IMG/VR virus record: IMGVR_UViG_3300035703_000223 | Span: 1-37,095 of that record | Reading direction: 5' to 3' (one strand) | Source of the DNA: a virus | DNA length: 37,095 nucleotides | Part shown: one piece after another, positions 2,842-28,709 of the stretch | Layout of the letters: each line of letters starts with the position of its first letter | Position numbering within the stretch: position 1 is the stretch's first letter | Translations under genes and position numbers: made by a program | The notes under the pieces: generated by a model | What the model was told of the DNA's origin: nothing | Seen by the model: the letters and a program-made list of their open reading frames with translations, nothing else | The model's database searches: none

Positions 2842-2850
2842 GGATTGGTT

Positions 2851-3210: not shown

Positions 3211-3212
3211 CC

Positions 3213-3434
3213 ATGGACTATCAAGTAGCTTTTAACCTTGTCGTCGGTGTCGCAGCGGCATTTGGCGGTTGGGTGCTTCGATCAATCACCAACACGCTAG
3301 AGAATCTCCAGCGCGATCACAAAGAGATGATGAGCCAATTCGTGCGCCGCGATGACTACCGAGATGCACTTGAGCGCATCGAGACTGTGCTCAATCGTAT
3401 CTGGGACAAGCTGGACGATAAGGTAGACAAGTAG
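3213..3434 (+). CDS. Membrane/coiled-coil lysis-region protein (holin-like)
   Basis: A 73-residue protein starting at ATG 3213. Residues 5-25 form a hydrophobic segment (VAFNLVVGVAAAFGGWV) followed by a charged helix rich in Glu, Arg, Asp and Lys through to the end, typical of small phage membrane proteins of the XhlA/holin-accessory kind. It lies immediately upstream of the amidase; the TAG stop and the next GTG share a base, so it is coupled to endolysin translation. A holin or holin-regulator role is inferred from topology and position, because another holin candidate follows the amidase. Confidence 0.7.
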   Translation: MDYQVAFNLVVGVAAAFGGWVLRSITNTLENLQRDHKEMMSQFVRRDDYRDALERIETVLNRIWDKLDDKVDK

Positions 3435-3973
3435 TGCTATTCCTCTCTGCCGGTCACTCACCTCGAGCGCCCGGTGCATCATGGAAAGGATTTGTCGAGC
3501 ACACCGAAGCGGCTAGATGGGTAGCCGAGCTATCGCGCCGACTGCCTTCTGCGTATGTAGTACCGAGTGGCACACTTGAGTCCAAGGTTGCATATATCAA
3601 TGCGCGTTCGCCTAAAGTCGCGCTAGCGGTAGAGGTACATTTCAATGCTTCGCCATCTAACAGCGGGCGAGGTTGCGAGACTCTATATGCACCTGGCTCC
3701 CGTCGCGGTGCGCTAGTCGCAGAGGAAATCAATAACGCGCTGGCTGAGCACTTCTTTCCGAATCGCGGCATCAAGCCGGGTTGGTTCCAGCAAAACCCAT
3801 CACAACCAGCGCTGTATTTTTTACGGGCAACAAAACCTACAGCGATCATCATAGAGCCAGAATTTATTTATCACGCCGATTCGATTCGAGAGAAGCAATC
3901 TGCGTGCTGTGCATCATTGGCAAAAATACTGCGGGGGTACACTCATGACGGACGAATCGCCGATTACCCATAA
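3434..3973 (+). CDS. N-acetylmuramoyl-L-alanine amidase (endolysin)
   Basis: A 179-residue, GTG-initiated protein of the zinc amidase_3 family, which cleaves the lactyl-amide bond between N-acetylmuramic acid and L-alanine in peptidoglycan. Visible features are AGHS at 6-9 with metal ligand His8, Glu22, an ALAVEVHFNAS strand with His69, and the IIIEPEF strand carrying the probable catalytic Glu (141 or 143). There is no signal peptide, so export needs a holin. There is also no cell-wall-binding domain, as is usual for compact endolysins of phages infecting Gram-negative hosts. It is flanked by two small membrane proteins. Confidence 0.9.
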   Translation: MLFLSAGHSPRAPGASWKGFVEHTEAARWVAELSRRLPSAYVVPSGTLESKVAYINARSPKVALAVEVHFNASPSNSGRGCETLYAPGSRRGALVAEEINNALAEHFFPNRGIKPGWFQQNPSQPALYFLRATKPTAIIIEPEFIYHADSIREKQSACCASLAKILRGYTHDGRIADYP

Positions 3974-4173: not shown

Positions 4174-5172
4174 ATGCCTAACAAGTTGAGCGATGACGAG
4201 TTCATCGCATTATGGCAGAGGTCTGGTAGTGCTAGCGAAATCTCGAAGATCACCGGCCTATCGCAACGAGCGATATACGGTCGCCGTCGATCCCTAGAGG
4301 CTCGACTAGGCGTCTCGCTCGCTAGCAAATTCCCGAGCGGCGCTAAAGCTAGCTGGCAAGTTCAGCAGGGTGAGGCGTTAAGCGCGGTTGCCGCCGAACG
4401 CGCCCGTAGATACGAGCGGGATATACCGTTTGAGGTGCAGGATGGCGAGGTGATGGTTGCCTCTGATTGCCATTACTGGCCGGGGATCGTCACGCTCGCT
4501 CATACTGCATTCTGTAAACTAGCGAAGGCGATTAAGCCGAAGGTCGTGATACTAAATGGCGATGTGCTGGACGGCGCTCGAATCTCGCGTCACGCTCGGA
4601 TCATGTGGGAAAAGCAGCCCGATCTGAAGGACGAGATTTACGCTGTACAGGATCGCGTCGCAGAGATCGAGCGAGCAGCTGCTGGTGCGAAATTCCTACG
4701 CACGATTGGCAATCACGATGCTCGATTCGAAAACTACCTATCGGGTCGCGTCGGCGAGTTTGAAGAGATGACGGGCATGACGCTACTTGACTACCTACCT
4801 CGATGGGAGTCTGGTTGGGCGGTGCATCTGAACCCGAACACGGAAGGATGGGTCACGGTGCGCCATCGACCTATATCGGGTGGCGTTCACTCTGCGTATA
4901 ACTCGACGTTGAAGGCTGGCGTCAACTACGTTCACGGCCATCTGCATAAGCTACAGGTGACGCCGTGGGCAGACTATCGAGGCCGTCGCTATGGCGTCGA
5001 TACTGGCACGCTCGCAGAACCCGAAGGTCCGCAGTTCAACTACACCGAGGCGGGTCCGCTAAACTGGGCGAGTGGGTTCGCGGTACTGACCTTTAAGGAT
5101 GGGAAGCTCTTACAACCCGAGCTATGTGTGGTAGAACACGGTAAGGCGTGGTTCAGAGGTGTAGAGATATGA
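4174..5172 (+). CDS. Calcineurin-like metallophosphoesterase with N-terminal HTH
   Basis: A 332-residue protein. Residues 1-45 form a helix-turn-helix-like segment (SASEISKITGLSQRAIYGRR). The rest is a calcineurin-type metallophosphoesterase with all core motifs: D98-x-H100, GD at 129-130 with D133, GNHD at 179-182 and GHLH at 255-258. Such enzymes use two metal ions to hydrolyse phosphodiesters or phosphomonoesters; phage members are variously linked to DNA ends or nucleotide turnover. Its place between the holin and spanin genes is unusual and gives no clear substrate. No SD sequence is obvious before the ATG, which follows the holin stop by one base. Confidence 0.88.
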   Translation: MPNKLSDDEFIALWQRSGSASEISKITGLSQRAIYGRRRSLEARLGVSLASKFPSGAKASWQVQQGEALSAVAAERARRYERDIPFEVQDGEVMVASDCHYWPGIVTLAHTAFCKLAKAIKPKVVILNGDVLDGARISRHARIMWEKQPDLKDEIYAVQDRVAEIERAAAGAKFLRTIGNHDARFENYLSGRVGEFEEMTGMTLLDYLPRWESGWAVHLNPNTEGWVTVRHRPISGGVHSAYNSTLKAGVNYVHGHLHKLQVTPWADYRGRRYGVDTGTLAEPEGPQFNYTEAGPLNWASGFAVLTFKDGKLLQPELCVVEHGKAWFRGVEI

Positions 5173-11933: not shown

Positions 11934-12091
11934 CTGATGAAAACCAATTCGGTCGCTACACCCTCGATGAACTAGAGCGCCAGATCAAGGAAGCAGTGAG
12001 GGCAGAGCAGGAAGCTAACGCCAAGGTTGTTCTCGCGTGGGTAGCTATCGCCTATGTGATCGGGCTGATAGTCGGAGCGCTGGTGTTATGA
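11930..12091 (+). CDS. Tail-anchored membrane micro-protein
   Basis: A 53-residue protein starting at ATG 11930, overlapping the nuclease stop (ATGA). The first 30 residues are charged and helical (YTLDELERQIKEAVRAEQEA). The rest is one hydrophobic helix (VLAWVAIAYVIGLIVGALVL) that runs to the C-terminus. This tail-anchor layout suggests a small inner-membrane protein. It is followed by an overlapping (ATGA) regulator gene. Family unknown. Confidence 0.6.
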   Translation: MTDENQFGRYTLDELERQIKEAVRAEQEANAKVVLAWVAIAYVIGLIVGALVL

Positions 12092-12531
12092 CGGATCGCA
12101 AGTCTCATCGAGCGATGGATAAAGCCTTGATCGAGACTGATCTAGTCCTACAGGCTTGGGGCAAGTGGGCTAGGGGAGAGATAGGCAAGCACGCATGGCC
12201 TAGAGAATCTCCGATGTTCAAGATGCTACGCGAGATGCGACTAGGTATCAGAGCCAAGAGCACGGTCACGGCTGGCAATGAGGAAGTAAAGGCACAGGTA
12301 GTCGCAGCCGATAAGATCGTCGCCCGGCTCGAGGAAAGACAGAAGGCGGCGATATGGTCGCACTACATAGCGCGTGGCGAGACTAGATTCCATTGCGCTA
12401 GGGCAGCTGGCATGAGCGTGAGCGAGTATGACCGGGCGCTCGAGCGCGGGCGCTGGACGATCCATACCGCTCTGCCCTTCGTGGTAGAAATAGGGGGGGG
12501 TATGCCTTCCCAGAAAAGCGCTAGGCAATAA
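12088..12531 (+). CDS. Putative Q-like late antiterminator/regulator
   Basis: A 147-residue protein starting at ATG 12088, overlapping the previous stop. The N-terminal part has a TDLVLQAWGKWARGEIGKHAW segment. The C-terminal half, AAIWSHYIARGETRF, CARAAGMSVSEYDRALERG and WTIHTAL, is a sigma-region-4-like helix-turn-helix as in phage Q-type antiterminators and RinA/ArpU regulators. It is the last gene of the early operon, just upstream of a candidate promoter, the HNH gene and terminase genes, exactly where a late-gene activator belongs. The subtype is not certain. Confidence 0.7.
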   Translation: MTDRKSHRAMDKALIETDLVLQAWGKWARGEIGKHAWPRESPMFKMLREMRLGIRAKSTVTAGNEEVKAQVVAADKIVARLEERQKAAIWSHYIARGETRFHCARAAGMSVSEYDRALERGRWTIHTALPFVVEIGGGMPSQKSARQ

Positions 12532-13527: not shown

Positions 13528-14154
13528 ATGAAGATCGAGCAAATTAAGGTTTCTGACCTCCTGCCGTACATAAACAATGCACGGCGACACCCAGAAGCCC
13601 AGATAGCCCAGCTAGCCGCAAGCATCAAGGAGTTCGGGTTTAACAACCCAATACTTATTGGCGATGACCTGACCATTATCGCGGGTCATGGCCGGTTCGA
13701 TGCGGCAAAGCGGTTAGGGCTGACAGAGGTTCCGTGCATAAAGGTGTCTCACCTGACGCCTACGCAGCGGAAGGCATACATACTGGCTGACAATAAGCTG
13801 GCGCTCAATGCTGAATGGGATATCGAGCTGCTGAACCTAGAGCTCGACCATCTGCAGGAGAACGGCTTTGACATCGAGTTCACCGGATTCACCGACACCG
13901 ACTTACAGAAAATTCGAGACGATCTTGACCAAGCCAGTCTGCTGCAAATGTCAGACGGTGCAGAGCAAGACAGCCCAGCCCAACCAAAAGAAAAAGACAG
14001 TGAGTTCTATCCACTGTCAGTGTTGGTTGAGCACGATCAACGCAACGATATCTTCGCTGCTATAAAAAAAGCGAAGGAGAAGCACTCGCTAGACAATAGC
14101 GGTGATGCGATATGGTCAATCTGTAAAGAATGGATGGCTGATGAAAGCATTTAG
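13528..14154 (+). CDS. ParB-like protein 1
   Basis: A 208-residue protein with an N-terminal ParB/Srx-fold domain: KVSDLLPYINNARRHPEAQI, then IKEFGFNNPILIGDDLTIIA, the catalytic-type loop GHGR at 53-56, RLGLTEVPCI and LTPTQRKAYILADNKLALNA. This is the version usually fused to phage DNA methyltransferases, but here a short helical C-terminus (DIFAAIKKAKEKHSLD, AIWSICKEW) replaces the methyltransferase. No SD precedes the ATG. It heads a four-gene module with a cupin, a PAPS-reductase-like protein and another ParB-like protein. The family includes nucleases and nucleotide-using enzymes; its reaction here is unknown. Confidence 0.8.
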   Translation: MKIEQIKVSDLLPYINNARRHPEAQIAQLAASIKEFGFNNPILIGDDLTIIAGHGRFDAAKRLGLTEVPCIKVSHLTPTQRKAYILADNKLALNAEWDIELLNLELDHLQENGFDIEFTGFTDTDLQKIRDDLDQASLLQMSDGAEQDSPAQPKEKDSEFYPLSVLVEHDQRNDIFAAIKKAKEKHSLDNSGDAIWSICKEWMADESI

Positions 14155-14845
14155 CGCGTATGAGTTTAAGACCGGCAAGATTGCCGACCTAGATAGAAAA
14201 TTCCCGTCGTATCTATCCGCATGGGATCAAGATACGCTGCACCTGAAAGAAGGTGACACGCACTACATCTATTGTCACGAAGGCGAGGCGTTCTTCAAGT
14301 ATCAAGAGCGCGGCTATACGCTGGTCGCTGGTATGTTCGCCTGTGTCCCGGGCGATACCGGCGTGAGCGGCGGTAAGGGAATCGTAGTGAGCCGTGAGGG
14401 CTGGGATGGTGTATTCCACCTAGGCGGCAAGATCGAGCGCCGTGGTCGATTGAAATACATCGATGGCTGCACCGATAGCTTGCTAGTTCCACCCGTCATG
14501 ATGGGTGATCCTTGCCTAAACTTGCTCTACTTCCCGCCTGATATTGACCAGACCGCGCACACTCACCCGAGTGATCGCATCGGTATGATTATGTCCGGTC
14601 GCGGTCTATGTCACGCATGGAATGATGGCGTAGAAGAGAAGATTGAGCTGCGTGCTGGATTAATCTTCTGCATCCACACCGATGGCGTGCATAAATTCTC
14701 GACGCCGTTTGGCGATGAGATGCGCGTTCTCGCATACCATCCAGATTCAGACTTCGGTCCTACGCACCAGACCCACCCGATGATCAATCGCACGATTGTG
14801 GATGGCGTCAGCGCTAGCCTCTTGCCTAGCATTCAGACCAAATGA
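14141..14845 (+). CDS. Cupin-fold protein
   Basis: A 234-residue protein starting at ATG 14141 inside the end of ParB-like 1 (14-base overlap). The C-terminal half has cupin motifs: DQTAHTHPSDRIGMIMSGRG with a paired-His metal site, RAGLIFCIHTDGVHKF, and FGDEMRVLAYHPDSDFGP. The N-terminal half looks like a second, degenerate beta barrel (YIYCHEGEAFFKYQERGYTL, VAGMFACVPGD), so it is likely a bicupin. Such proteins are metal enzymes or small-molecule binders. The ATGA-type overlap with the next gene suggests that it works with the PP-loop enzyme. Confidence 0.75.
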   Translation: MKAFSAYEFKTGKIADLDRKFPSYLSAWDQDTLHLKEGDTHYIYCHEGEAFFKYQERGYTLVAGMFACVPGDTGVSGGKGIVVSREGWDGVFHLGGKIERRGRLKYIDGCTDSLLVPPVMMGDPCLNLLYFPPDIDQTAHTHPSDRIGMIMSGRGLCHAWNDGVEEKIELRAGLIFCIHTDGVHKFSTPFGDEMRVLAYHPDSDFGPTHQTHPMINRTIVDGVSASLLPSIQTK

Positions 14846-16020
14846 GTCGAATCTACAAGAAGGCATTTGCAGAAGAATCCGTATATGAAGCCGCGCTCGG
14901 GCGGTTCCGTCAGTTATTTGACAACTTCGATAAGGTTGTCATCTCATTCTCTGGCGGCAAGGATTCGACCGTTTGCTTAAACCTTGGCCTACAGGTAGCT
15001 CGAGAAAAGGGAAAGCTCCCGCTAGACGTCTACTTCTGGGATGAAGAGGCCATACAACCGGAGACGGTAGCCTACGTAGAGCGAGTTCGCGCCATACCTG
15101 ATGTGCGACTCAAATGGTTATGCGTACCGATTCAGCACCGGAATGCGTGCTCGAGGTCGCAACCGTATTGGCATCCGTGGAACCCAGACGAAAAAGAGAA
15201 GTGGGTTCGTGATATGCCAGAGTACGCTATCACGGAAGTCAAAGGATTCTATTGGGGCGCTAGCGTTCCAGACATTGCCCACAAGGTCTACGGTCCAGAA
15301 TGCGGAACCGTGGCTGATGTGCGCGGCATCAGAGCTGATGAATCGTTGCGCCGCTACCGTAGCGTAGCGATGCGGACAAAAGACAATTGGATAGGTAGCG
15401 CAAGGGACAAATATAGCTACCCATGCAGCCCTATTTATGACTGGACTACGCTAGACGTATGGACAGCGCCTCGTATGTTCGGCTGGGATTACAACCGCTC
15501 ATACGACATTATGAGTATGCTCGGCATTGCGCCATCCGATCAGCGAGTGTGCCCTCCGTATGGTGAGGAGCCGCTAGGCGGGCTATGGATGTACGCGCAG
15601 GGATGGCCTGATCTCTGGCACAAAATGATTAACCGCGTACATGGCGCAGCGACCGCTGGCCGATACGCAAACACAGAACTCTATGGGTTCGGCAAACTGA
15701 CGCCGCCACCGGGGATGACATGGCGCGAGTGGACGTACTCGTTGCTTGAGCTATACCCGAAAGAGCTCAAAGCCAAGGTAGCTGCTAATCTCGCAGCCCT
15801 AATCGCACAACACAAGACCAAAACCAATCGCCCGATACATGAAACAGAGCCTGATCCGATGACCGGGCTAAACTGGAAATTTCTGGCGATGATTGCTAAC
15901 CGGGCTGACCTAAAAGATCGCAGAAAAGGTAATGTGACCACGGCAGCGAAAGCAGTACGCGATAAGCAGGGCTTAACCCTAGAGGACGTCACAGAAAGTG
16001 ATTTCGGCACTAGATACTGA
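14842..16020 (+). CDS. PAPS-reductase-like PP-loop protein (IbrA/YbdN-like)
   Basis: A 392-residue protein coupled to the cupin gene. SGGKDS at 37-42 is the PP-loop that binds ATP or adenylyl groups. Later segments DVYFWDEEAIQPET, GVRADE-like GIRADESLRRYRS, YSYPCSPIYDWTTLDVW and SDQRVCPPYGEEPLGGLW fit the PAPS reductase/DUF3440 group that includes E. coli YbdN and IbrA. These need not reduce PAPS. The pair IbrA/IbrB was described as regulating Eib surface proteins in E. coli. The following gene is IbrB-like, so the pair is conserved here. Activity could involve sulfur transfer or adenylylation, but it is unproven. Confidence 0.82.
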   Translation: MSRIYKKAFAEESVYEAALGRFRQLFDNFDKVVISFSGGKDSTVCLNLGLQVAREKGKLPLDVYFWDEEAIQPETVAYVERVRAIPDVRLKWLCVPIQHRNACSRSQPYWHPWNPDEKEKWVRDMPEYAITEVKGFYWGASVPDIAHKVYGPECGTVADVRGIRADESLRRYRSVAMRTKDNWIGSARDKYSYPCSPIYDWTTLDVWTAPRMFGWDYNRSYDIMSMLGIAPSDQRVCPPYGEEPLGGLWMYAQGWPDLWHKMINRVHGAATAGRYANTELYGFGKLTPPPGMTWREWTYSLLELYPKELKAKVAANLAALIAQHKTKTNRPIHETEPDPMTGLNWKFLAMIANRADLKDRRKGNVTTAAKAVRDKQGLTLEDVTESDFGTRY

Positions 16021-19765: not shown

Positions 19766-20759
19766 TCTTAAACCGACAGAGGCGATGGCCGAGGAAGCGC
19801 AGCGCGGTCTTGATTGGCGAGCAGAGTTCAATCGAGGCGGCACGGCGGTAGGCGTAGCGCGAGCGCGAGACATTAGCAATCGCGTCAATCTGTCACCTCG
19901 AACGGTGCGCCGCATGGTGAGCTATTTCGCCCGCCATGAAGTCGATAAGGAAGGCCAAGGCTGGTCGCCCGGTGAGGATGGCTATCCTAGCGCTGGCCGT
20001 ATCGCTTGGGCGCTATGGGGCGGTGATCCCGGTCGCTCATGGGCAAATGCTCGGAGCAGGGAATTAGAGTCAGAGGAAAGATCAATGGATATCCATGTCA
20101 CTAAAGATATGCCGCTCTCCGAGTGCGAATTCAAATTCAGCACGAAAGAGAATGTATTCCAGTTCGAGGGCTACGCCTCTGTATGGGGTCGCGTAGATTC
20201 CTATGGCGATACCGTACTGAAGGGCGCATTTGAGGACTCGCTTGAGAAAGAGCGAATGCCGCTGATGCTATACGGTCACAATGCGAATCGCGTCATCGGC
20301 AAGTGGATCGAGATGCGAGAGGATGATCGCGGCCTCTATGTGGTCGGCGAATTAACGCCAGGTCACAGCGAGGCGAAGGATATCCAAGCCCTGATGGTTC
20401 ACGGCGCTATCTCTGGACTATCAATCGGTGGTTACACGACCGAATGGGAAGATAAAGCTGACCGTGGAAAAATCATCAAATCATTTGATCTGTACGAGAT
20501 TAGTCTGGTATCTATGCCAGCAGAGGATGAGGCGCGTATCGACCCTGCTAGCTTTAAGAGCCAGCTGAACGATGCAGAGACGATTAAAGATGTCGAGGCA
20601 CTGCTGCGTGATGCAGGAGGGTTTTCGAGATCAAATGCGACAGCGATTGTCGCAAAACTCCGAGCCATTCTTCAGCGCGATGCTGATAGCAAGGGTAAGG
20701 AAAAAGACGAGCTGGCTGCATTAGCCGAATTTATCCGTTCACATAAGATTGAGGTTTAA
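19755..20759 (+). CDS. Prohead protease with extra N-terminal domain
   Basis: A 334-residue protein. Residues about 111-270 are an HK97-type (U35) prohead protease: FQFEGYASVWGRVDSYGDTV, MPLMLYGHN with catalytic His, GLSIGGY with catalytic Ser, and LYEISLVSMPAEDEA. Residues 1-105 are an additional domain (RGLDWRAEFNRGGTAVGVAR, LSPRTVRRMVSYFARHE, GYPSAGRIAWALWGGD) found in phage proteins but without a known function. An internal ATG at 20085 has a very good AGAGGAAAG site and would give the protease alone, about 224 residues. It matures the capsid by cleaving the delta domain. Confidence 0.88.
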   Translation: MAVDLKPTEAMAEEAQRGLDWRAEFNRGGTAVGVARARDISNRVNLSPRTVRRMVSYFARHEVDKEGQGWSPGEDGYPSAGRIAWALWGGDPGRSWANARSRELESEERSMDIHVTKDMPLSECEFKFSTKENVFQFEGYASVWGRVDSYGDTVLKGAFEDSLEKERMPLMLYGHNANRVIGKWIEMREDDRGLYVVGELTPGHSEAKDIQALMVHGAISGLSIGGYTTEWEDKADRGKIIKSFDLYEISLVSMPAEDEARIDPASFKSQLNDAETIKDVEALLRDAGGFSRSNATAIVAKLRAILQRDADSKGKEKDELAALAEFIRSHKIEV

Positions 20760-20763
20760 GAAA

Positions 20764-21960
20764 ATGGATGCTTCAGAAATCAAAGGTATTGAGGACGTTA
20801 AAAGCGCGTTCCTCTCGCAACATCATGAGTTGAAGTCCTTCATTGAGAAGGCCAACAACGAAATTAAGGACGCTGGCTCTGTCTCTGCCGAGACGAAGGC
20901 CGCTGTCGATAAGATCAGCACGACTGCTAACGAGTTGGCTGACCGCATCGGCAAGCTCGAAGCGAAAGCCTCGCGCAGCGTCGATCTGTCGGGCGAGCGC
21001 AAGAGCCTCGGTCGCGCCTTCTCGGAGAGCAACGAGTACAAGGCTCTCCGCGCTGGTAGCACCAAGTCGGCTCGTATGGATGTGAAGGCCATTACCAACG
21101 TGATGCCGCCGTCCAATGATGCGCCGCTCGTTGCTGCGGATCGCCTCCCGGGAATGATCACGCCGCCGACCCGTCGGCTCACGATCCGTGATCTTCTGGC
21201 CTCGGGCGTCACCTCGAGCAACCTTGTCGAGTTTGCCAAGGAGAATGTGTTCACGGATAACGCCGGTCCGCAGGTTGGTGCTTCGCCGACCGTACAGGCT
21301 GAAAACGTGACCAAGCCAGAGTCGGATATCACCTTCACGCTCGCTAGCGTGCCGGTGGTGACGCTCTCGCACTTCATCCTCGCCTCGCGTCAGGTGCTCG
21401 ATGACTCGCCGATGCTGGAGAGCTACATCAACACCCGCTTGCTCTACGGCTTGAAGCTCGAAGAGGAGACTCAACTCCTTAACGGCTCGGGCGCGTTCGG
21501 CAACATCTCTGGCTTGAACACGAACCGCACGGCGTACAATCGCCATGTTGCTGGTGATACGAAGATCGACACGCTCCGTCGTGCAATCACGCAGCTCCAG
21601 CTTTCGGAGTTCCAAGCCGAGGCGATCATCATCAACCCGGCGCAGTGGGAACAGATCGAGCTGCAGAAGGATGACGAGAAAAACTATGTGTTTGCTTCTG
21701 TCGTTCAGGCTGTCGGTCCAACCCTCTGGGGCTTGCCGGTCGTTGCGACCAACTCGATGCCTAACAACCAGTTCCTCGTTGCGAACCTCTCGCAAGCGGC
21801 ACAGGTTTGGGATCGTATGCAAGCGACCGTTGAGCTCTCGCGCGAAGATGACACCAACTTCCGTAAGAATATGGTGACCATCCTCGCCGAGGAGCGCATC
21901 GCTCTTGCGGTGTATCGTTCGTCCGCTCTCATCGGCGGCAACTTCCCGCAGACGCCGTAA
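20764..21960 (+). CDS. Major capsid protein (HK97 fold)
   Basis: A 398-residue protein starting at ATG 20764 with a GAGGT site; an upstream start at 20749 would lack one. Residues 1-100 form a coiled-coil delta (scaffold) domain; protease cleavage is expected near 105-115. The HK97-fold part contains PTRRLTIRDLLASGVTSSNL, VEFAKENVFTDNAG, FTLASVPVVTLSHFILASRQ, LESYINTRLLYGLKLEEETQ, IINPAQWEQIELQKDDEKNY and VTILAEERIALAVYRSSALI. Codon use is distinct: Leu is mostly CTC or TTG and CTA is almost absent, unlike nearby accessory genes, as expected for very high expression. Confidence 0.95.
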   Translation: MDASEIKGIEDVKSAFLSQHHELKSFIEKANNEIKDAGSVSAETKAAVDKISTTANELADRIGKLEAKASRSVDLSGERKSLGRAFSESNEYKALRAGSTKSARMDVKAITNVMPPSNDAPLVAADRLPGMITPPTRRLTIRDLLASGVTSSNLVEFAKENVFTDNAGPQVGASPTVQAENVTKPESDITFTLASVPVVTLSHFILASRQVLDDSPMLESYINTRLLYGLKLEEETQLLNGSGAFGNISGLNTNRTAYNRHVAGDTKIDTLRRAITQLQLSEFQAEAIIINPAQWEQIELQKDDEKNYVFASVVQAVGPTLWGLPVVATNSMPNNQFLVANLSQAAQVWDRMQATVELSREDDTNFRKNMVTILAEERIALAVYRSSALIGGNFPQTP

Positions 21961-21966
21961 GGCAAT

Positions 21967-21996
21967 AGGGGGAGCCGGGGAAACTCGGCTCTCCCT
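21967..21996 (+). terminator. Hairpin after the capsid gene
   Basis: Arms AGGGGGAGCCG (21967-21977) and CGGCTCTCCCT (21986-21996) form an 11-pair stem with one G.U. A pyrimidine stretch CTCTTATG follows rather than a clean T run. It probably gives partial termination or 3'-end protection, keeping capsid mRNA in excess over the downstream cassette. Confidence 0.6.
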
Positions 21997-22001
21997 CTCT
22001 T

Positions 22002-22436
22002 ATGTTTAGAGTAGAAGCAAAAGTCCCATTTTGGTGTAGCGTGACTGGCGGTCGTATTCCGTTCGAGCGCTTTTCTACCGATAGGGATACGGCTTACCGA
22101 TTGCAAAAGGTCGGACTTGTCGAGATCATCGACGAGAAATGGAATTTAGAGACGAAAGACGGACAGCCGTCATCATCGCTAGCGGACCATCGGCAGCAGA
22201 AGCCGATCTATCCTTACTCGAAGGCTGGCCGGTCATCGCGGTCAACGATTGCTGGAGACTCTACCCAGCAGACGTCCTCTACGCTTGCGACGAACAATGG
22301 TGGAACCGATACCACAGAGAAACCGAAATTTTCCGTGGTCAGCGGTGGACGCAGAGCAGGGAGGCCGCGAAAAGGTACGGCCTCCACCACATCGAAGGGC
22401 AGCACGGATCAGGATTTTCCACCCGACGCGGCCTAA
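22002..22436 (+). CDS. Small protein overlapping the next gene, possible head protein
   Basis: A 144-residue frame starting six bases after the hairpin. Residues 1-50 look like a folded domain (MFRVEAKVPFWCSVTGGRIP, TAYRLQKVGLVEII). The rest is Ser/Thr/Gly/Lys-rich, probably disordered, and ends GRRAGRPRKGTASTT, an AT-hook-like basic patch. From 22139 on it is overlapped for 298 bases by a well-supported gene in another frame. No SD is seen. The first part fills an otherwise empty gap and looks real; the tail is either a true overprinted region or a run-on. Confidence 0.5.
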   Translation: MFRVEAKVPFWCSVTGGRIPFERFSTDRDTAYRLQKVGLVEIIDEKWNLETKDGQPSSSLADHRQQKPIYPYSKAGRSSRSTIAGDSTQQTSSTLATNNGGTDTTEKPKFSVVSGGRRAGRPRKGTASTTSKGSTDQDFPPDAA

Positions 22437-22723
22437 TTAAATACAACTGGAATTCTGGCGCACAGGCAATGCAGCTAGGCTGGCAGCTAGGCGCTAGGCG
22501 ATTTGTGCTCATCGGTTTTGATATGCAGCCCGTAGATGGCAAGGTGCATTGGTTCGGCGATCACCCGCGCGGCTTGATCAATGAATCGCCGTGGCAGATG
22601 TTCATATCCGCATTTGAAGTGATCGCCAAGGATTGCCAAGAGCTAGGCATCGAGGTGATCAATACGAGTCGCATATCAAAGCTGACTTGCTTCCCTAAAG
22701 CCTCGCTAACAGAGGCGCTATGA
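22139..22723 (+). CDS. ASGPS-motif protein, putative sugar/nucleotide-sugar enzyme
   Basis: A 194-residue protein. TAVIIASGPSAAEADLSLLE (9-28) and VIAVNDCWRLYPADVLYACD are the Rossmann-like opening seen in DUF115/MAF-like proteins and related phage enzymes, in which the GPS loop probably binds a nucleotide or nucleotide sugar. Later, ARRFVLIGFDMQPVDGKVHW and CQELGIEVINTSRISKL complete the fold. It opens the sugar cassette behind the capsid gene and overlaps the next gene (ATGA). DUF115-type proteins are linked to flagellin or surface glycosylation. The substrate here is unknown. Confidence 0.75.
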   Translation: MEFRDERRTAVIIASGPSAAEADLSLLEGWPVIAVNDCWRLYPADVLYACDEQWWNRYHRETEIFRGQRWTQSREAAKRYGLHHIEGQHGSGFSTRRGLIKYNWNSGAQAMQLGWQLGARRFVLIGFDMQPVDGKVHWFGDHPRGLINESPWQMFISAFEVIAKDCQELGIEVINTSRISKLTCFPKASLTEAL

Positions 22724-23484
22724 GAGCCTTTGTCCTCATACGCCATGATCCGCTATACCGTAGAGCATCCTTCGAGCAGGGCTTACGGGCTGTAGGCTAT
22801 GAGATACACGGCATACCTAGGAACACGATAAAACCTAGCGATGTGCTGGTAATCTGGAATCGCTACGGCGAGGGCGCTATCTATGCTGATCGCTTCGAGG
22901 CAGCTGGCGCTAGAGTCCTAGTTGCAGAGAATGGATACCTAGGGCGCGATTGGCGCGGCGAGCACTGGTATGCGCTGGCCGCTAACTATCACAACGGCGC
23001 TGGCAGTTGGCCTCGAGGAGGGGCAGAGCGCTGGAATGATTGGCGCGTGCCAATGGCTGAATGGCGAACGGGTGGCAATGAAATAGTGATCCTCGCTACC
23101 CGTAGCATCGGTCCTGTAGGCGTAGCGGAGCCGCATGGATGGTGCGGTCAACAGTACGATTCGCTGCGGCGTATGACGGACAGGCCTGTTAGAATTCGAG
23201 AGCACCCCGGCGAGAGGCCATGCGTAAGTTTAGAGCATGACCTACGCGATGCGTATGCGGTGCTCACTTGGGGTTCCGGTGCAGCGCTAAAAGCTCTGTT
23301 GATGGGCATTCCGGTTTTTTATGGATTCAAAAATTGGATTGGCGCTGGTGCTGGTCGAGTCTGGGATGGCAACCTAGAGCCCGCTAGACCGTGCCGCCTA
23401 AATACATTTCAGACATTGGCGTGGTCCATGTGGAACACCCGAGAAATAGCTACCGGGGAGCCCTTCGCTCGGCTTCTGGCGTGA
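22720..23484 (+). CDS. GT-B-like glycosyltransferase paralogue A
   Basis: A 254-residue protein, first of three tandem paralogues. The N-terminal half has IKPSDVLVIWNRYGEGAIYA and GARVLVAENGYLGRD. The C-terminal half has VRIREHPGE, LEHDLRDAYAVLTWGSGAAL and KALLMGIPVFYGFKN (184-203), a pattern like the donor-binding end of capsule-type (KpsC/KpsS-like) and other GT-B enzymes: a Ser/Gly-rich loop followed by a helix and G-x-P. It is the most divergent of the three. Sugar donor and acceptor are unknown. It overlaps both neighbours by four bases. Confidence 0.68.
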   Translation: MRAFVLIRHDPLYRRASFEQGLRAVGYEIHGIPRNTIKPSDVLVIWNRYGEGAIYADRFEAAGARVLVAENGYLGRDWRGEHWYALAANYHNGAGSWPRGGAERWNDWRVPMAEWRTGGNEIVILATRSIGPVGVAEPHGWCGQQYDSLRRMTDRPVRIREHPGERPCVSLEHDLRDAYAVLTWGSGAALKALLMGIPVFYGFKNWIGAGAGRVWDGNLEPARPCRLNTFQTLAWSMWNTREIATGEPFARLLA

Positions 23485-24320
23485 AGGTAGTTATCTACGA
23501 GCAGCGCTCGCACGTTAGAAGCAAGATGATCTGCGATGCGATGCAGCTCGGCATCAGCCGGTGCGGGGATTTTGTTGTTCGCACCTATGCGGATCAATTC
23601 AAATCAGCTGGCGATGAGTGGGCTGTGTTCTACGGCCTAGACGGAAAGTTAAAAGAGATATTCGACACCTACTCAAAACTAGGTCGCGCGGTCTATGTAG
23701 ACCTAGGCTATTGGGGAAGGACGCAGGGCGGTAAGCTGGCTGGCTTTCATAAGATCGTGCTGAACGGTCGCCACCCAGAGGGCTATTATCGGCGCGGCTA
23801 CCCTAGCGATAGGTTCGCAGCGCATAACGTAGCGATCCAGCCGTGGCGCTCTGGCGGCACGCACATCTTGATCGCTGGCATGAGCGATAAGGCGGCGTTC
23901 TACGCAGGGTTTAAGGCCGAGGAGTGGGAGCGCGAGACTATAGCTAAACTACAGGCCGTCACCACCCGGCCTATCGTCTACCGGCCTAAACCTAGCTGGA
24001 AGGGCGCGAGGCCTATACACGGCGTGCAATACTCCGAGCCAGCCGTACCGCTAGAGCTAGCGATAAAGCACGCATGGGCGGTGGTCACGCACCACAGCAA
24101 CGTGGCGGTCGATGCTATCCTCGCTGGCGTACCGGCCTTCTGCTGGCACGGCGTAGCGCGAGAGATGAGCAGCCAAGATATAGGGCAAATTGAGCACCCA
24201 TTTAGACCCGAAGGCAGACTGGAGTGGGCATCGGATATAGCCTATACCCAATGGTCTGTCGTAGAGATCGCGCACGGCCTTCCGTGGGCGCATTTCAAAC
24301 GAGAGGGGCTGGTAGGGTGA
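23481..24320 (+). CDS. GT-B-like glycosyltransferase paralogue B
   Basis: A 279-residue protein. The start chosen is GTG 23481, overlapping the previous stop (GTGA); the frame is open further upstream but would overlap paralogue A by 90 bases. It contains AVYVDLGYWGR (70-80), IVYRPKPSW (165-173), KHAWAVVTHHSNVAVDAILA (196-215) and GVPAFCW, then QWSVVEIAHGLPWAHFK. It aligns with paralogue C almost without gaps; the YRPKPSW and AWA-VTH motifs fall at the same residue numbers. Likely a glycosyltransferase in the same pathway as its neighbours. Confidence 0.7.
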   Translation: MKVVIYEQRSHVRSKMICDAMQLGISRCGDFVVRTYADQFKSAGDEWAVFYGLDGKLKEIFDTYSKLGRAVYVDLGYWGRTQGGKLAGFHKIVLNGRHPEGYYRRGYPSDRFAAHNVAIQPWRSGGTHILIAGMSDKAAFYAGFKAEEWERETIAKLQAVTTRPIVYRPKPSWKGARPIHGVQYSEPAVPLELAIKHAWAVVTHHSNVAVDAILAGVPAFCWHGVAREMSSQDIGQIEHPFRPEGRLEWASDIAYTQWSVVEIAHGLPWAHFKREGLVG

Positions 24321-25168
24321 GGGTGGTTTTCTACTACGCCGAGAAGCCGCGAGAGCGCATTTTACAGGGTGCGTTCGCGGAGGGCGTGAAGGTACACGGC
24401 GATGAGTTCGAGGCGCGGCTACTCTCGCAGGGGGTAGTGGACTGCGATGTGGCCGTGATGGTCGGCGTGAAGAGCAGGGAGCTATTCCAGACTCACTGGA
24501 AGGCTGGCACGCATACCGTACTGCTGGACAAGGGCTACCACAGGGCTACCTACCCCGGCGGGGCTAGGGGCTGGATTTACTGGCGCGTGGCGGTCAATGC
24601 TCACCAGTGTACCGCCTACCTATCGCAGAACAGACCGAGCGATAGAGCCAAGAAGATAGGCTGGCACGTTCAGCGCTGGCGCAAGAATGGGAGCCACATC
24701 CTATTTGGCGGCAGCAGTCAGAAATATCACGAATTTGTTGACGCTGGCGATCCGACAGAGTTCGCCAAAAAGACGATCAGACGCATAGCTAAATTTAGCT
24801 CACGCGAGATTATCTATCGTCCGAAGCCTAGTTGGGATGGCGCTGTACCCGTAGAAGGCGCGACCTTGCGCGATGAGTTCGTGCCGCTAGCGCATGACCT
24901 CGAGGGCGCATGGGCTACCGTCACGCATGGTTCTAGCATCTGCCTCGAATCTATCTTGTGCGGCGTGCCGGTGGTCGTGCTAGGCGATGCGGTAGCAAAA
25001 CCGATCAGCTCTACCGACCTGTTAGAGATAGAATCGCCGCGACTGGCAAGCGAGGATGAGGTGAGCCAATGGCTAGCCAATCTCGCCTATCAGCAATGGA
25101 CGCTAGCGGAATTCGCCAGCGGTGAGGCATGGGGAAACATTAAGTCGGTGATATATGGCGCGTATTAG
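24317..25168 (+). CDS. GT-B-like glycosyltransferase paralogue C
   Basis: A 283-residue protein starting at GTG 24317, overlapping paralogue B (GTGA). Motifs: HTVLLDKGYHRATYPGGARG, NRPSDRAKKIGW, IIYRPKPSW (165-173), GAWATVTHGSSICLESILCG (197-216), VPVVVLGDAVAKPISSTDLL and YQQWTLAEFASGEAW. The THGSS loop, helix and CGVP turn are those of polysaccharide-type GT-B enzymes. It is very close to B in length and motif spacing. Overlaps the FAD oxidoreductase gene by 14 bases. Confidence 0.7.
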   Translation: MRVVFYYAEKPRERILQGAFAEGVKVHGDEFEARLLSQGVVDCDVAVMVGVKSRELFQTHWKAGTHTVLLDKGYHRATYPGGARGWIYWRVAVNAHQCTAYLSQNRPSDRAKKIGWHVQRWRKNGSHILFGGSSQKYHEFVDAGDPTEFAKKTIRRIAKFSSREIIYRPKPSWDGAVPVEGATLRDEFVPLAHDLEGAWATVTHGSSICLESILCGVPVVVLGDAVAKPISSTDLLEIESPRLASEDEVSQWLANLAYQQWTLAEFASGEAWGNIKSVIYGAY

Positions 25169-26141
25169 GGTTCTCGGTGGCGGCTGGTATGGCTGTCATA
25201 TAGCAAAGACGCTATCCGAGGAAGGCTATCAAGTAGAGCTACATGAGAGAGCGCCGCGATTATTCTCTGGTGCATCTGGCGGCAATCCCGCTCGATTGCA
25301 TCTAGGGTTTCACTACCCGCGATCACGACTAACCCGAGCAGCTAGCCAAGAACACTATCTAGCGTTCATGGAGCAGTACGGGCATCTGACTCGCGCAGTG
25401 CCGATCAATCTCTACTGCATAGCCGCGCATGACTCGTTGCTGGACTTCGGTACATATAGGCAAGTCTTACAGGGTGAGCTTGAATTTGTGACCGTGCATG
25501 AGCCATCAGATTTTGGCCTGACCAATATTGAGGGTGCGCTACTGACGGGCGAGCGGCATATCGTTATTAACGCCGCGCGTGACTATTACGAGAAAGAGCT
25601 TGCCTCTCTGGTGCGCTATCAGACGCCGCCAGAGGAGCGCGATGATTTCGACTGGACGATTGACTGCACATTCTGTGCTAGAGATAACGCAGCGATTGAT
25701 CGCTATGAGCCGTGCTTAACGGTTCTGCTGGAAGGTCCAACGGATAAAGCCATCACGATTATGGATGGTCCATTCCCGTCGATCTATCCGTGGAATGAGG
25801 AAATGGGCTTATCTAGCCTAACTAGTGCGAGTCTCACGCCATTCTCAAAATCTCTGAAAACGCACGAAGAGGCTACAGCGGTTCTTAATTCGCAGACTGT
25901 AGATAGTATCCGCGAGCGCTGTCAGGCGATGGTGCAGCAGATCGCGCACTTCTACCCTGCCGTCCTCGAGGAGTACCGGGTTGCGGATTACAAGCTGACG
26001 ATACGCGCACAGCCTCGATCTGGTTCTGACGCTCGGCTGGTCGATATTGTACAGACCGCTCCGCGCGTTCTGCGTATCCGCGCTGGCAAGATTGACGCGA
26101 TACTGCACGCACGCGAAATGCTGAAGGAATGGCTACCGTGA
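25155..26141 (+). CDS. FAD-dependent oxidoreductase of polysaccharide-locus type
   Basis: A 328-residue protein with the dinucleotide-binding start IRVLGGGWYGCHIAKTLSEE (4-23) and the family signature SGASGGNPARLHLGFHYPRS (38-57), known from DAO-like FAD oxidoreductases encoded in bacterial capsule and LPS clusters. Later, INLYCIAAHDSLLDF, DWTIDCTF, MDGPFPSIYPW and VQTAPRVLRIRAGKIDAIL correspond to substrate-domain strands and the final FAD-contact region. It probably oxidises or rearranges a sugar or amino sugar. It lies between three GT-like genes and an SDR gene, which supports a glycan pathway. Confidence 0.82.
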   Translation: MARIRVLGGGWYGCHIAKTLSEEGYQVELHERAPRLFSGASGGNPARLHLGFHYPRSRLTRAASQEHYLAFMEQYGHLTRAVPINLYCIAAHDSLLDFGTYRQVLQGELEFVTVHEPSDFGLTNIEGALLTGERHIVINAARDYYEKELASLVRYQTPPEERDDFDWTIDCTFCARDNAAIDRYEPCLTVLLEGPTDKAITIMDGPFPSIYPWNEEMGLSSLTSASLTPFSKSLKTHEEATAVLNSQTVDSIRERCQAMVQQIAHFYPAVLEEYRVADYKLTIRAQPRSGSDARLVDIVQTAPRVLRIRAGKIDAILHAREMLKEWLP

Positions 26142-26680
26142 TAGCGGTGACGGGTAGACGGACTACGATTGTTGAAGAGCTAGGTGTGTATGAGCCCATC
26201 GAGAGAATCGAGGAGCACTATCTACCTAGCACGGACAAGTTTGTTCTAGCTGCTGGCGTTCTGATCGGTAAGAAGATAGCCGACATGAGTACGCTAGAGG
26301 CTTATGACACGGTTTTCGTCAATCTAATCTCGACGATGAGAACCTGTGAGCGCATTCTGTCTCTTGTACCTAATGCGCGTATCTGCATAATCGGTAGTTG
26401 CTCTGGGATCAAAGGCAGTTACGATCAGTTGTATGGGGCGAGCAAGGCGGGCATACATCACTACGTTAAAACCCGCAAAGTACTCGACGCCCAACAACTG
26501 ATCGCTGTCTCTCCGTGCATCATCTCTGATTCTGGTATGACGCGCCGCCGTAGCGATTACGATGACGTCATCGAGAATCGAGATACCGTTACTGCAAAAC
26601 AGGTAGCTGATGTGGTCTATGGACTACTGACGATGAGCCCCGCTGTATCTAATCAGATCGTGCCGGTTGGTCCGTGCTGA
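26129..26680 (+). CDS. Short SDR-family oxidoreductase
   Basis: A 183-residue protein. ATG 26129 opens it, but GTG 26138, overlapping the previous stop (GTGA) with GAAGGA nine bases before, may be the true start. SDR features: IAVTGR at the N-terminus in place of the full TGxxxGxG, CIIGSCSG with catalytic Ser, and the active-site LYGASKAG with Tyr102 and Lys106, then ISDSGMTRR. It is shorter than usual SDRs (about 250) with a reduced cofactor loop. It probably works with the FAD enzyme on the same sugar. Confidence 0.78.
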   Translation: MATVIAVTGRRTTIVEELGVYEPIERIEEHYLPSTDKFVLAAGVLIGKKIADMSTLEAYDTVFVNLISTMRTCERILSLVPNARICIIGSCSGIKGSYDQLYGASKAGIHHYVKTRKVLDAQQLIAVSPCIISDSGMTRRRSDYDDVIENRDTVTAKQVADVVYGLLTMSPAVSNQIVPVGPC

Positions 26681-27414
26681 CCGTCTGTACGGGCTGGAGC
26701 CCTAAAGGGTGGGTAGAGTACGGCGAGGCATTCGTACATAGCGCTGCGCGTCATTGGTCTAGCGATATTAGATTGCTAGCCTATGTCGAGGAGCTTATCG
26801 AATTACCGATAGGCGAATGCCGGTCTGTCTTACAGATACCGGGCTGCGTAGAATTTATTGACAAGTACCGCGACGATAAGCGGGCTAATGGGCGAGATGT
26901 ACAATCTAACTGGAAAGAGGCTGCGAAGAAGCGCGGCTATCATTTCCGTTGGGATGCGTGGAAATTCTGTCGGCAGGGATTCATACCGCTAGCCGCAGCG
27001 CAAGAATGCGAGACAGAATACCTAGCGTGGTTCGATGCTGATGTGGTGACGTTCGCAGACGTTAGTGCGGAGGACATTACCAGCCTGTTGCCTAGCGGAT
27101 ACGATGTGGCCTATCTCGGTAGACCTAAATGGTCAGAGATCGGTTTTCAGTTATACCGATTGCCAGCTGCGCTACCGATGCTAGAGCAATTCTCTCGATA
27201 CTACAGAGATGAGACGGTATTTGATCTGCACGAATGGCATTCTGCCTATGTGTTCGATCGCGCACGCGAGGCGACTGGCATAGCTGGCTGGAATCTCACG
27301 CCTAACCGTGAAGGCGATGTGTGGCCGTATACGCCGCTCTCTAAATTTAGCGTACATCTGAAAGGTGATAGGAAAGGCAATGCAAAACGTCTTGCGGGTC
27401 TACATAGGATTTGA
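26674..27414 (+). CDS. GT-A-type glycosyltransferase
   Basis: A 246-residue protein starting at GTG 26674. It has a Rossmann-like beginning (MLTVCTGWSPKGWVEYGEAF), a FRWDAWKFCRQGFIPLAAA helix region, TEYLAWFDADVVTF with the DAD metal/nucleotide-sugar motif at 121-123, YDVAYLGRPKWSEIGFQLYR and FDLHEWHSAYVFDRAR. This is the layout of small GT-A enzymes of phage and capsule origin. It would transfer a sugar from a nucleotide donor with a divalent metal. It overlaps the next GT gene by 35 bases. Confidence 0.8.
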   Translation: MLTVCTGWSPKGWVEYGEAFVHSAARHWSSDIRLLAYVEELIELPIGECRSVLQIPGCVEFIDKYRDDKRANGRDVQSNWKEAAKKRGYHFRWDAWKFCRQGFIPLAAAQECETEYLAWFDADVVTFADVSAEDITSLLPSGYDVAYLGRPKWSEIGFQLYRLPAALPMLEQFSRYYRDETVFDLHEWHSAYVFDRAREATGIAGWNLTPNREGDVWPYTPLSKFSVHLKGDRKGNAKRLAGLHRI

Positions 27415-28099
27415 TTCACGCGAGACCATTGCCTACGAGGTAGCAGAGAAGTCGCTCCTCGAGTACGCCAGCACGCCTGTGATGGTAACGCCTCTGTTAC
27501 TAGAGCGATTACAGGCGAGTGGGTTATCGCAGCGTCCGTATCGAGTCTATCGAGGCGGGGTCTGGGATGTTATTTCAGATGCGCCTGTATCGACTGAATT
27601 TGCAAACACTCGATTCCTAGTTCCTCTGCTAGCGCAGACTGGCTGGGCGTTATTTACTGACTGCGATGTAGTGTTCCTATCAGATGTGGCCGAGCTATTC
27701 GCTATGGCCGATCCGCGCTATGCGGTGATGTGCGTGAAGCATAATCACCAGCCGGTAGAGACAGAGAAAATGGATGGCTGCGTACAGACGAGCTATCCGC
27801 GCAAGAATTGGTCGAGTGTGGTTCTATTTAACTGTGACCACGAAGCTAATCGAGCACTCACGCTGCATCGCATTAACAATGCGCCCGGTAGAGAGCTGCA
27901 TCGGTTCTACTGGTTGCAGGATCATGAGATCGGCGAATTGCCGCTCGAATGGAATTGGCTCGTCGGTGTTCAGCCTAAACCGTTGAATCCCAAAATTGCA
28001 CATTTCACACTAGGGGGACCGTGGCTCCCCGAATGGAAGGCAGCAGAACATGATCAACTCTGGTTGGACTGTAAAGGTCGTCACACCCGCGCCGGTTGA
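27380..28099 (+). CDS. GT8-like glycosyltransferase
   Basis: A 239-residue protein starting at ATG 27380 with an AGGAAAGG site; an earlier GTG at 27365 is less likely. It begins VYIGFDSRETIAYEVAEKSL, then ISDAPVSTEFANTRFLVPLL, GWALFTDCDVVFLSDVAELF with the DxD motif DCD at 94-96, KNWSSVVLFNCDHEAN, LQDHEIGELPLEWNWLVG and AHFTLGGPWLPEW. This matches a GT8/GT24-like family common in phages and surface-polysaccharide loci. It is the last gene of the sugar cassette and overlaps the connector gene by 50 bases, tying the cassette to virion genes. Confidence 0.85.
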   Translation: MQNVLRVYIGFDSRETIAYEVAEKSLLEYASTPVMVTPLLLERLQASGLSQRPYRVYRGGVWDVISDAPVSTEFANTRFLVPLLAQTGWALFTDCDVVFLSDVAELFAMADPRYAVMCVKHNHQPVETEKMDGCVQTSYPRKNWSSVVLFNCDHEANRALTLHRINNAPGRELHRFYWLQDHEIGELPLEWNWLVGVQPKPLNPKIAHFTLGGPWLPEWKAAEHDQLWLDCKGRHTRAG

Positions 28100-28709
28100 G
28101 CCCGTCGATTTAGAGACGGTAAAGCAGCACGCGCGTATTGATACGAGCGCTGATGATGATTTCATCGAGACGATCATTATTCCAACCGCTAGGGATCGAG
28201 CGCAGCAGTATTTACGGCGCAGTCTGATTGATACTGTAGTGGATATCACATGGGATGGTTTTCCGTGGTATCGCATTGATCAGGCATTCTTCGTGCCATG
28301 GGCTCCGATCAAGTCAATTATCTCTATCAGCTACCGCGATTCCTATGATGCGGTCACGGTGCTCGATAGCTCGATGTACCGACTAGAGAATGTGAATGAG
28401 CCAGCCCGTATCGTCCCTGCCTACGGCAAGTTGTGGCCTAACACTTCTGGCGGTATCGGCGCTGTCACGGTTCGCGCCTTCGTAGGCTATCCGCACGTTG
28501 CTGGCAATGCACACCCAGTCGGCAGTCCAGTACCGACACCGGCAGAGTATCGAGCAAACATACCGCCATCTATCAAACACGCAATCTTGATGGACTGCGG
28601 TCATCTCTATAATAACAGAGAAGCGGTGATGGAGATTCAAGGCGGCTCGCTGGTTACTACGCCGCTCGGTTGGGAATCACTCTTGGATCAATATAGGTTG
28701 ATGGTCTAA
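28050..28709 (+). CDS. Head-tail connector (HK97 gp6-like)
   Basis: A 219-residue protein with the head-tail connector pattern: EPVDLETVKQHARIDTSADD, DFIETIIIPTARDRAQQYL, ISISYRDSYDAVTVLDSS, AVTVRAFVGYP and IPPSIKHAILMDCGHLYNN, ending LLDQYRLMV. The gp6-type adaptor forms a ring under the portal. ATG 28050 is inside the upstream GT gene; no other start is better placed. The stop overlaps the next ATG by one base. Confidence 0.88.
   Translation: MINSGWTVKVVTPAPVEPVDLETVKQHARIDTSADDDFIETIIIPTARDRAQQYLRRSLIDTVVDITWDGFPWYRIDQAFFVPWAPIKSIISISYRDSYDAVTVLDSSMYRLENVNEPARIVPAYGKLWPNTSGGIGAVTVRAFVGYPHVAGNAHPVGSPVPTPAEYRANIPPSIKHAILMDCGHLYNNREAVMEIQGGSLVTTPLGWESLLDQYRLMV

Follow-up and report, generated by a model that had tools for sequence, protein, structure and literature searches.

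A cassette of eight overlapping sugar-enzyme genes in the virion module of a lambdoid phage as a candidate pathway for virion protein glycosylation

The stretch of DNA analysed here (the window) is the viral IMG/VR record IMGVR_UViG_3300035703_000223, 37,095 bases long, in which eight overlapping plus-strand open reading frames (ORFs) at positions 22139-28099 lead from the major capsid gene to the gene of a gp6-like head-tail connector. We read this cassette, at a probability of roughly 60%, as a self-contained pathway of protein glycosylation in the cytosol, transcribed as part of the late operon and acting on a virion protein, the glycan of which would be of the ulosonic-acid type. An earlier note, made from the letters of the window alone, had described eight genes of sugar enzymes between capsid and connector, and all eight ORFs were found at the positions it had given (Table 1). 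In order, they encode ASGPS, a putative initiating transferase; three paralogues (GB1, GB2 and GB3) of the glycosyltransferase (GT) type GT-B; a flavin adenine dinucleotide (FAD)-dependent oxidoreductase; a short-chain dehydrogenase/reductase (SDR); and two GT-A-type transferases (GA1 and GA2).

The structure of ASGPS was modelled from a 29-sequence alignment (predicted local distance difference test, pLDDT, 95.3). Its top VIA-align match was the Magnetospirillum Maf structure 5mu5 (Z 14.8, root-mean-square deviation 2.9, 170 residues aligned), and the sialyltransferases Cst-I and CstII scored Z 13.6 and 13.5; the next structural families were HPPK (MptE-like) at Z 10.6 and SteA at Z 10.0. Foldseek searches with the same model ranked CstII first (E 2e-4). 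By its predicted structure ASGPS is thus a GT42/Maf-fold transferase. Throughout the 29 family members D51, D128 and N175 are invariant and H137 is at least 90% conserved, positions that are candidate counterparts of the catalytic His and the CMP-binding residues of CstII. Profile matches of ASGPS to ferritin (E down to 2e-5) are regarded as spurious because the model shows the GT42/Maf fold; CstII entries appeared in that profile search at E 0.003 only. The gene is widespread, with 73 records in the phages collection by tblastn, including phage D3 and pmgO of phage P1.

GB1, GB2 and GB3 are homologous to one another. GB3 was modelled from 63 aligned sequences, with each of the three paralogues represented (pLDDT 96.1), and all of its 15 best VIA-align rows were transferases of the retaining kind for 3-deoxy-D-manno-oct-2-ulosonic acid (Kdo; families GT99/GT107), with Z scores of 14.4-11.6 (WbbB 14.4, KpsC 14.0, KrkA 11.9; next best 9.8). 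The model therefore gives GB3 a GT-B fold of the retaining-Kdo kind. Two collinear stretches of KpsC were matched by the GB family profile (E 7e-5); with the GB1 profile by itself the collinear match to KpsC was weak (E=0.22). The nucleophilic Asp of the retaining Kdo transferases (D160 in KpsC, D232 in WbbB, D193 in KrkA, as given in the titles of the structure entries) is not conserved at the aligned GB column, which comes from a sequence-profile alignment and is thus provisional: Asp stands there in 16 of 71 GB2-like sequences and in none of the GB3-like (0/69), GB1-like (0/47) or unassigned GB sequences (0/17), and Glu in 8/71 GB2-like and 6/69 GB3-like sequences. Because this Asp is unconserved, the donor and the mechanism of the GB enzymes are uncertain.

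For the GT-A pair the evidence lies in motifs and family matches. GA1 keeps D121, D123, H228, G231 and K234 invariant in all 33 sequences, in the pattern D-x-D and H-x-x-G-x-x-K, which we take to be the motifs of GT8 glycosyltransferases; it matched no Pfam family above cut-off, GT8 included. GA2 approached Pfam GT8 (E=0.008) below the cut-off, and its relative in locus L097 passed it (32.7 bits, cut-off 24.3); the one motif seen in GA2 is a DxD at D93 and D95 in five sequences. The earlier note had named structure predictions showing no transferases as one result that would overturn its reading, and the two proteins modelled, ASGPS and GB3, instead show transferase folds. Together with the GA1 motifs and the GT8-passing member of the GA2 family, they bear out the transferase assignments.

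The FAD protein matched Pfam DAO with 33.5 bits (cut-off 27.9), and G8, G10 and G13 of its FAD-binding GxGxxG region, as well as H49 and H53, are invariant in 32 sequences; by these sequence criteria it is a DAO-type flavoprotein. The SDR matched Pfam adh_short (35.4 bits, cut-off 26.6) with N65, S90, Y102 and K106 invariant in 29/29 sequences, N-S-Y-K being the catalytic tetrad of SDRs. Cellular relatives of the FAD gene were rare at E 1e-25 with up to five candidates scored per genome: within the order one of 397 genomes had one, the search centre itself, and within the phylum two of 398, the centre included. In the sole bacterial genome beyond the centre the gene next to the FAD relative is a relative of NAD-dependent epimerases, as would suit a sugar that is first oxidised and then reduced. 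The epimerase pair DprE1/DprE2, in which flavoprotein oxidation is followed by SDR reduction, offers a parallel for such an epimerisation, as an analogy only, and DprE1 belongs to another flavoprotein fold family than DAO.

Conservation of the cassette was followed in contig collections queried with the capsid protein, FAD, GB and GA1; of the loci compared (numbered L003 and so on), only L003, L004 and L006 entered through GA2 or ASGPS matches. The capsid protein, used as query against viral contigs, had four relatives, L007-L010, with capsid identities to the window of 89%, 59%, 33% and 28% (D3 orf6: 40%). The cassette stands at the same place in L007, its last gene cut by the contig end, and L008 has all eight genes there with extra genes interspersed; L009 has capsid, ASGPS gene and connector, and no cassette gene was detected in L010. 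Scans with single FAD and GB3 sequences returned no match but alignment queries succeeded, small alignments yielding 24 loci for FAD, 65 for GB and 9 for GA1 on partly shared contigs, and the GB alignment found four loci among 84,980 species genomes, including one on a Mesorhizobium chromosome. When stop-to-stop frames had been searched with profiles and the loci grouped by similarity of their DNA, there were 64 non-redundant groups, 55 of them carrying three or more cassette genes. Of these 55, 29 have both FAD and SDR, 23 have neither, 3 have FAD only and 0 have SDR only, and wherever both are present the order is FAD-SDR-GA1 (29/29). The full order ASGPS, three GB, FAD, SDR, GA1, GA2 was found in 13 groups, the window included, some absences being due to contig ends; the GB paralogues are most often three per cassette, also two or four. 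Gene order and invariant residues thus make FAD and SDR part of one conserved unit, in keeping with the earlier note, which had counted both oxidoreductases to the cassette.

Pairwise distances of the cassette proteins correlate (r 0.37-0.64), a level that none of 999 permutations reached in any of the 10 comparisons, and in at least 8 of 33 loci (L008, L012, L018, L021, L026, L032, L044, L047) the nearest FAD relative sits in a different labelled slot, the slots having been assigned by hand. The cassette would then have travelled as a unit from one phage lineage to another. Some relatives add FkbM-type methyltransferases, and methyltransferases lie inside the cassettes of L008, L013 and L022. 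Searches of annotated phage records turned up GB or GA genes in Caulobacter jumbo phages, in Pelagibacter phage Mosig and in two Manatee Spring records; one Synechococcus and one Stenotrophomonas phage had GA2 alone, and the only FAD relative came from an unannotated faecal phage record. These homologues are often labelled 'hypothetical protein', some 'glycosyltransferase'.

Placement links the cassette to the virion module. One representative of each cluster of neighbouring genes was assigned to a family with PHROGs, and terminase, portal, capsid, protease, connector, head-morphogenesis and tail genes were counted as virion or packaging genes; the labels rest on a greedy ORF caller, which kept some antisense ORFs, and on tblastn, and are incomplete. 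Among the 54 non-redundant loci that have three or more plus-strand cassette genes, such a gene lies within 1 kb in 45 and within 2 kb in 49, counts that strengthen the virion link but have no control placement, with labels taken from the loci's own clusters and contigs cut around the match. The slots are diverse: between capsid and connector, between adaptor and head-morphogenesis gene, between neck or connector and major tail protein, before the terminase, and beside T7-like tail genes; in L086 and L098 the connector genes lie within the cassette. Caulobacter phage CcrSC carries ASGPS-GB-GB-GA2-FkbM (gp169-gp173, gp169 being the ASGPS homologue) directly behind its tail genes, and CcrPW has GB-GB-GA2-FkbM in the same place, the comparison there covering these four genes. 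The earlier note had asked whether the cassette always follows the capsid gene, which is ruled out by the variety of virion-module slots that it occupies.

Expression and location in the cell were judged from the window itself. Late expression of the cassette, as the earlier note had supposed, is likely because the phage encodes a Q-like antiterminator. No convincing plus-strand terminator was found inside the cassette, only a weak 5-pair site at 27629, in agreement with that note; the whole scan gave 10 terminator-like sites against 7.4 expected by chance. Coupling by ATGA or GTGA, said to prevail, is clear at 22720, 23481 and 24317 and at 26138 exists only with an alternative SDR start, giving just 3-4 of the 7 internal junctions, and the remaining ones are overlaps of 14, 7 and about 35 nt. 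The description of the cassette as inserted holds in an evolutionary sense only: in GC content (0.51-0.58) and in GC at third codon positions it resembles the head and tail genes on either side, so nothing points to a recently acquired foreign segment. The highest 19-residue hydropathy of the cassette proteins ranges from 0.92 to 2.00, the latter in GB3, whose model is a globular GT-B, and the enzymes are likely to be soluble.

A virion acceptor is suggested because of the location of the cassette, a cytosolic reaction because of the likely solubility of its enzymes, and a protein acceptor because of the Maf-like fold. Flagellin Ser/Thr residues can receive N-acetylneuraminic acid (Neu5Ac) or Kdo from Maf enzymes (Khairnar 2020, as cited in a passage of PMC7591256), and flagellin glycosylation is placed in the cytoplasm in a passage of the same article. 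From location, solubility, fold and Maf chemistry we therefore propose that the pathway begins with ulosonic-acid priming of a virion protein; what follows goes beyond a Maf-like fold in the virion module and is what we infer. The ASGPS enzyme would put a cytidine monophosphate (CMP)-activated ulosonic acid, either Kdo or a nonulosonic acid, on Ser/Thr residues of a structural protein, ahead of assembly or while it proceeds. Kdo is made by most Gram-negative bacteria. The three GB paralogues, as fold relatives of retaining Kdo transferases, could then lengthen the glycan, and the two GT-A enzymes, GT8-like, might add more sugars from nucleoside diphosphate donors. The FAD enzyme may oxidise one hydroxyl that the SDR re-reduces, leaving an epimerised or otherwise altered sugar, and FkbM-type methyltransferases may cap the chain in some relatives. 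Shielding or changed adsorption may be the benefit.

Several observations weigh against this reading, beginning with the uncontrolled placement count and the unconserved GB nucleophile described above. In five of the 54 loci a labelled virion gene is missing from the nearest 2 kb: in L084 the closest is 2.3 kb away, and L003, L051, L072 and L073 have none within 3 kb. One of the five is Pelagibacter phage Mosig, where the GB and GA2 genes stand amid nucleotide-metabolism and replication genes. A late position would also suit a late host-directed function, and GT8 clusters of pelagimyophages were read by their authors, in a passage of PMC7029224, as modifying the host O-chain. Neutral in this respect is the scoring of P1 pmgO, the ASGPS relative, as non-essential (passage of PMC10695390).

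That last interpretation of the pelagimyophage clusters belongs to the main rival reading, which we consider unlikely: late remodelling of host surface glycans. Here the enzymes would act in the cytosol on lipopolysaccharide or capsule precursors shortly before lysis, so as to exclude superinfecting phages or to keep released virions off debris. The GB fold is that of lipopolysaccharide and capsule Kdo transferases, and some loci, L003 for example, lie outside the virion module, both of which agree with a host target. Yet none of the eight families has the look of a flippase, polymerase or membrane-anchored transferase, judged by the hydropathy of the window proteins, the cassette recurs inside the virion module of unrelated phages, and the best structural match of ASGPS is a protein glycosyltransferase, although sialyltransferases are close behind.

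A glycan destined for a cytosolic protein of the host, for a nucleotide signal or for a small secreted molecule, as in counter-defence or host takeover, would be in keeping with the soluble look of the enzymes. We regard it as distinctly improbable; the cassette is linked with virion genes and not with early genes, and no peptide precursor or exporter stands among the identified recurring neighbour families, many neighbours being unidentified. A gene annotated as an exporter lies about 3 kb further on in the GA2-only record L006. Sugar modification of phage DNA bases against restriction is very improbable: DNA hypermodification in phages does employ glycosyltransferases (Pyle 2024, in the reference list of PMC12619734), but the window has no C5 cytosine methylase (PF00145) and no relative of thymidylate synthase/hydroxymethylase (PF00303), and the modelled enzymes fold like GT42/Maf and Kdo transferases. 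Among 49 related records, many of them fragments, C5 methylase was found in 8 and a thymidylate-synthase relative in 2; a TET/JBP search was empty in all 50 records and also in all 14 control genomes, hence uninformative. Flavoenzymes are likewise used in phage DNA hypermodification.

Returning to a virion target, the enzyme set and spread of the cassette, unlike virion glycosylation itself, look new, and the literature searched by title, start of abstract or passage contained no description of it. To our knowledge, few systems are on record in which phage virions are glycosylated. Among these are the mycobacteriophages, with glycans on capsid and tail tube (Freeman 2023, via a passage of PMC12619734), and in Corndog GT and O-methyltransferase genes between portal and protease were proposed to modify the capsid (passage of PMC4351075). 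Phages of the Corndog/Che8 type resemble the window in having GT and methyltransferase genes inside the structural operon. They differ in that tblastn of ASGPS, GA2, GB3, FAD, GA1 and GB1 against the phages collection names no Mycobacterium phage among the matches listed, and the Corndog set is distinct by description, comprising an O-methyltransferase, two glycosyltransferases and an N-acetylglucosamine transferase with no FAD or SDR protein named in that passage of PMC4351075. Maf/GT42 enzymes share the fold of ASGPS, and Maf acts on protein Ser/Thr (passage of PMC7591256), whereas identity to Maf and Cst-I/II is 12-15%, the chain has 194 against 632 residues for Maf, and the partner genes are different. 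The retaining beta-Kdo transferases KpsC, WbbB and KrkA agree with GB3 in fold, and KpsC also matches the GB family profile; the GB genes differ from them in the nucleophile, in being phage-borne and in forming several paralogues per cassette. D3 orf7 is an ASGPS homologue by tblastn in the same capsid-connector slot, which unlike the window has no GB, FAD, SDR or GA relative in the surrounding 10.5 kb. PmgO of P1 is likewise an ASGPS homologue by tblastn, in a pmg cluster with an annotated late promoter and with pmgQ, annotated as a glycosyltransferase gene. As a separate observation, pmgO lies near pmgQ behind the late promoter at 79592-82150 of P1 (NC_005856, L102), and P1 virions may deserve a check for glycans.

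Should a virion protein be the target, virion glycosylation would be a common trait of several kinds of environmental tailed phages, and its chemistry could be tested gene by gene. A coat of sugars can influence how a particle adsorbs, how stable it is and how it is recognised. The ASGPS family, with D3 orf7 (which adjoins the capsid gene) and P1 PmgO, would thereby be offered a function. More tentatively, and with chances we put well short of even, unrelated tailed-phage lineages may share a mobile ulosonic-acid protein O-glycosylation in which a Maf-like enzyme primes, Kdo-transferase relatives extend and the flavoprotein and SDR epimerise on the chain. The donor would then be host CMP-Kdo (or a nonulosonic acid), the particle would wear a coat like host lipopolysaccharide, and the lone Maf-like gene of D3 and PmgO of P1 would be minimal forms of the trait.

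Table 1. Coordinates of the cassette, its neighbours and related features (window positions unless a locus is named).
Feature	Coordinates	Strand	Basis or remark
HK97-type major capsid protein, upstream neighbour, outside cassette	20749..21960	+	phrog_10 E=3e-69
13-pair hairpin, capsid stop to cassette, possible attenuator	21967..21996	+	consensus scan only
Small capsid-adjacent protein, 144 aa, Ser/Thr-rich tail	22002..22436	+	tblastn counterparts; overlaps ASGPS gene
ASGPS, predicted GT42/Maf-fold transferase, proposed initiating protein O-glycosyltransferase	22139..22723	+	phrog_4603 E=4e-44; model
GB1, GT-B paralogue 1	22720..23484	+	homologous to GB2 and GB3
GB2, GT-B paralogue 2	23481..24320	+	GTGA-coupled start 23481; longest ORF from 23391
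GB3, GT-B paralogue 3, predicted retaining Kdo transferase fold	24317..25168	+	GTGA-coupled start 24317; longest ORF from 24224
FAD-dependent oxidoreductase, DAO superfamily	25155..26141	+	Pfam DAO
SDR	26129..26680	+	Pfam adh_short; alternative GTGA start 26138
GA1, GT-A-type transferase with DxD and HxxGxxK	26674..27414	+	invariant residues
GA2, GT8-like transferase	27380..28099	+	phrog_28018 E=2e-54; ORF list start 27365, upstream AGGA favours 27380
gp6-like head-tail connector, downstream neighbour	28050..28709	+	Pfam PF05135 E=3e-13
Q-like antiterminator, probable late-transcription driver	12037..12531	+	phrog_79 E=9e-8
Small gene or counterpart, L007	4720-5109		
Small gene or counterpart, L008	9629-10108		
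Small gene or counterpart, L013	1987-2388		
Small gene or counterpart, L019	3759-4211		
Small gene or counterpart, L009	2088-2498		
Small gene or counterpart, D3 (L004)	4831-5124		
Distant ASGPS-like gene, L043	9702-10244		
Distant ASGPS-like gene, L045	11875-12444		
Distant ASGPS-like gene, L049	7989-8522		
Distant ASGPS-like gene, L053	4152-4691		
Distant ASGPS-like gene, L097	12738-13292		
Extra modifying genes, L032	2115-3032		
Extra modifying genes, L051	14972-15850		
Extra modifying genes, L073	4794-6833		

The window as a whole reads as a lambdoid phage, with an O-like replication protein, Erf, NinB and the Q-like antiterminator, followed by small and large terminase, portal, protease, HK97-type capsid, connector, neck, tail and tape measure; positions 14800-37095 had no near match in the phages collection. 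The hairpin directly 3' of the capsid stop possibly lowers expression of the cassette relative to the capsid. The 144-aa ORF that follows it, to which the earlier note did not refer, overlaps the first cassette gene by 298 nt out of frame. It had no match in the phages collection; tblastn gave relatives in L007 (51%), L008 (35%) and L019 (37%), and counterparts by position were found in L013, L009 and D3. Such an out-of-frame overlap with the ASGPS gene recurs in several phages, D3 included, and measures about 165-315 nt, the starts being uncertain; RGRP-like motifs occur in the tail of the protein in the window, D3 and L009. We do not claim its Ser/Thr-rich tail as a glycan acceptor, the out-of-frame reading of other ASGPS genes being fairly Ser/Thr-rich too: the Ser/Thr fraction over ASGPS genes is 0.21 for 29 other genes, a set that includes redundant contigs and L014 (itself a capsid-slot phage), against 0.31 for 6 genes, L009 not scored.

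Five loci have a distant ASGPS-like gene behind the cassette, directly before a head-morphogenesis gene. Extra sugar- or protein-modifying genes beside cassettes encode radical SAM/SPASM proteins, a GFO_IDH_MocA oxidoreductase and an aminotransferase. The L097 contig, which has the cassette together with portal and head genes, is binned with a metagenome-assembled genome of the archaeon Methanoperedens, possibly wrongly; an archaeal host would lack CMP-Kdo. In L045 a portal protein (phrog_113) is encoded at 1499-3460, and its C-terminal stretch matches nearly the whole RNA-ligase family phrog_755 (E=4e-23). Elsewhere in the window, genes for a ParB-like protein, a cupin and a PAPS-reductase/DUF3440 protein stand in a row at 13528-16020, shortly before the terminase genes, an arrangement reminiscent of IbrA/IbrB. 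Behind a glycine-rich probable tail-fibre gene (149-1630) lies a 2-oxoglutarate (2OG)-Fe(II) oxygenase gene (1872-2489; phrog_81, Pfam 2OG-FeII_Oxy_5), the product of which could hydroxylate virion proteins or sugars.

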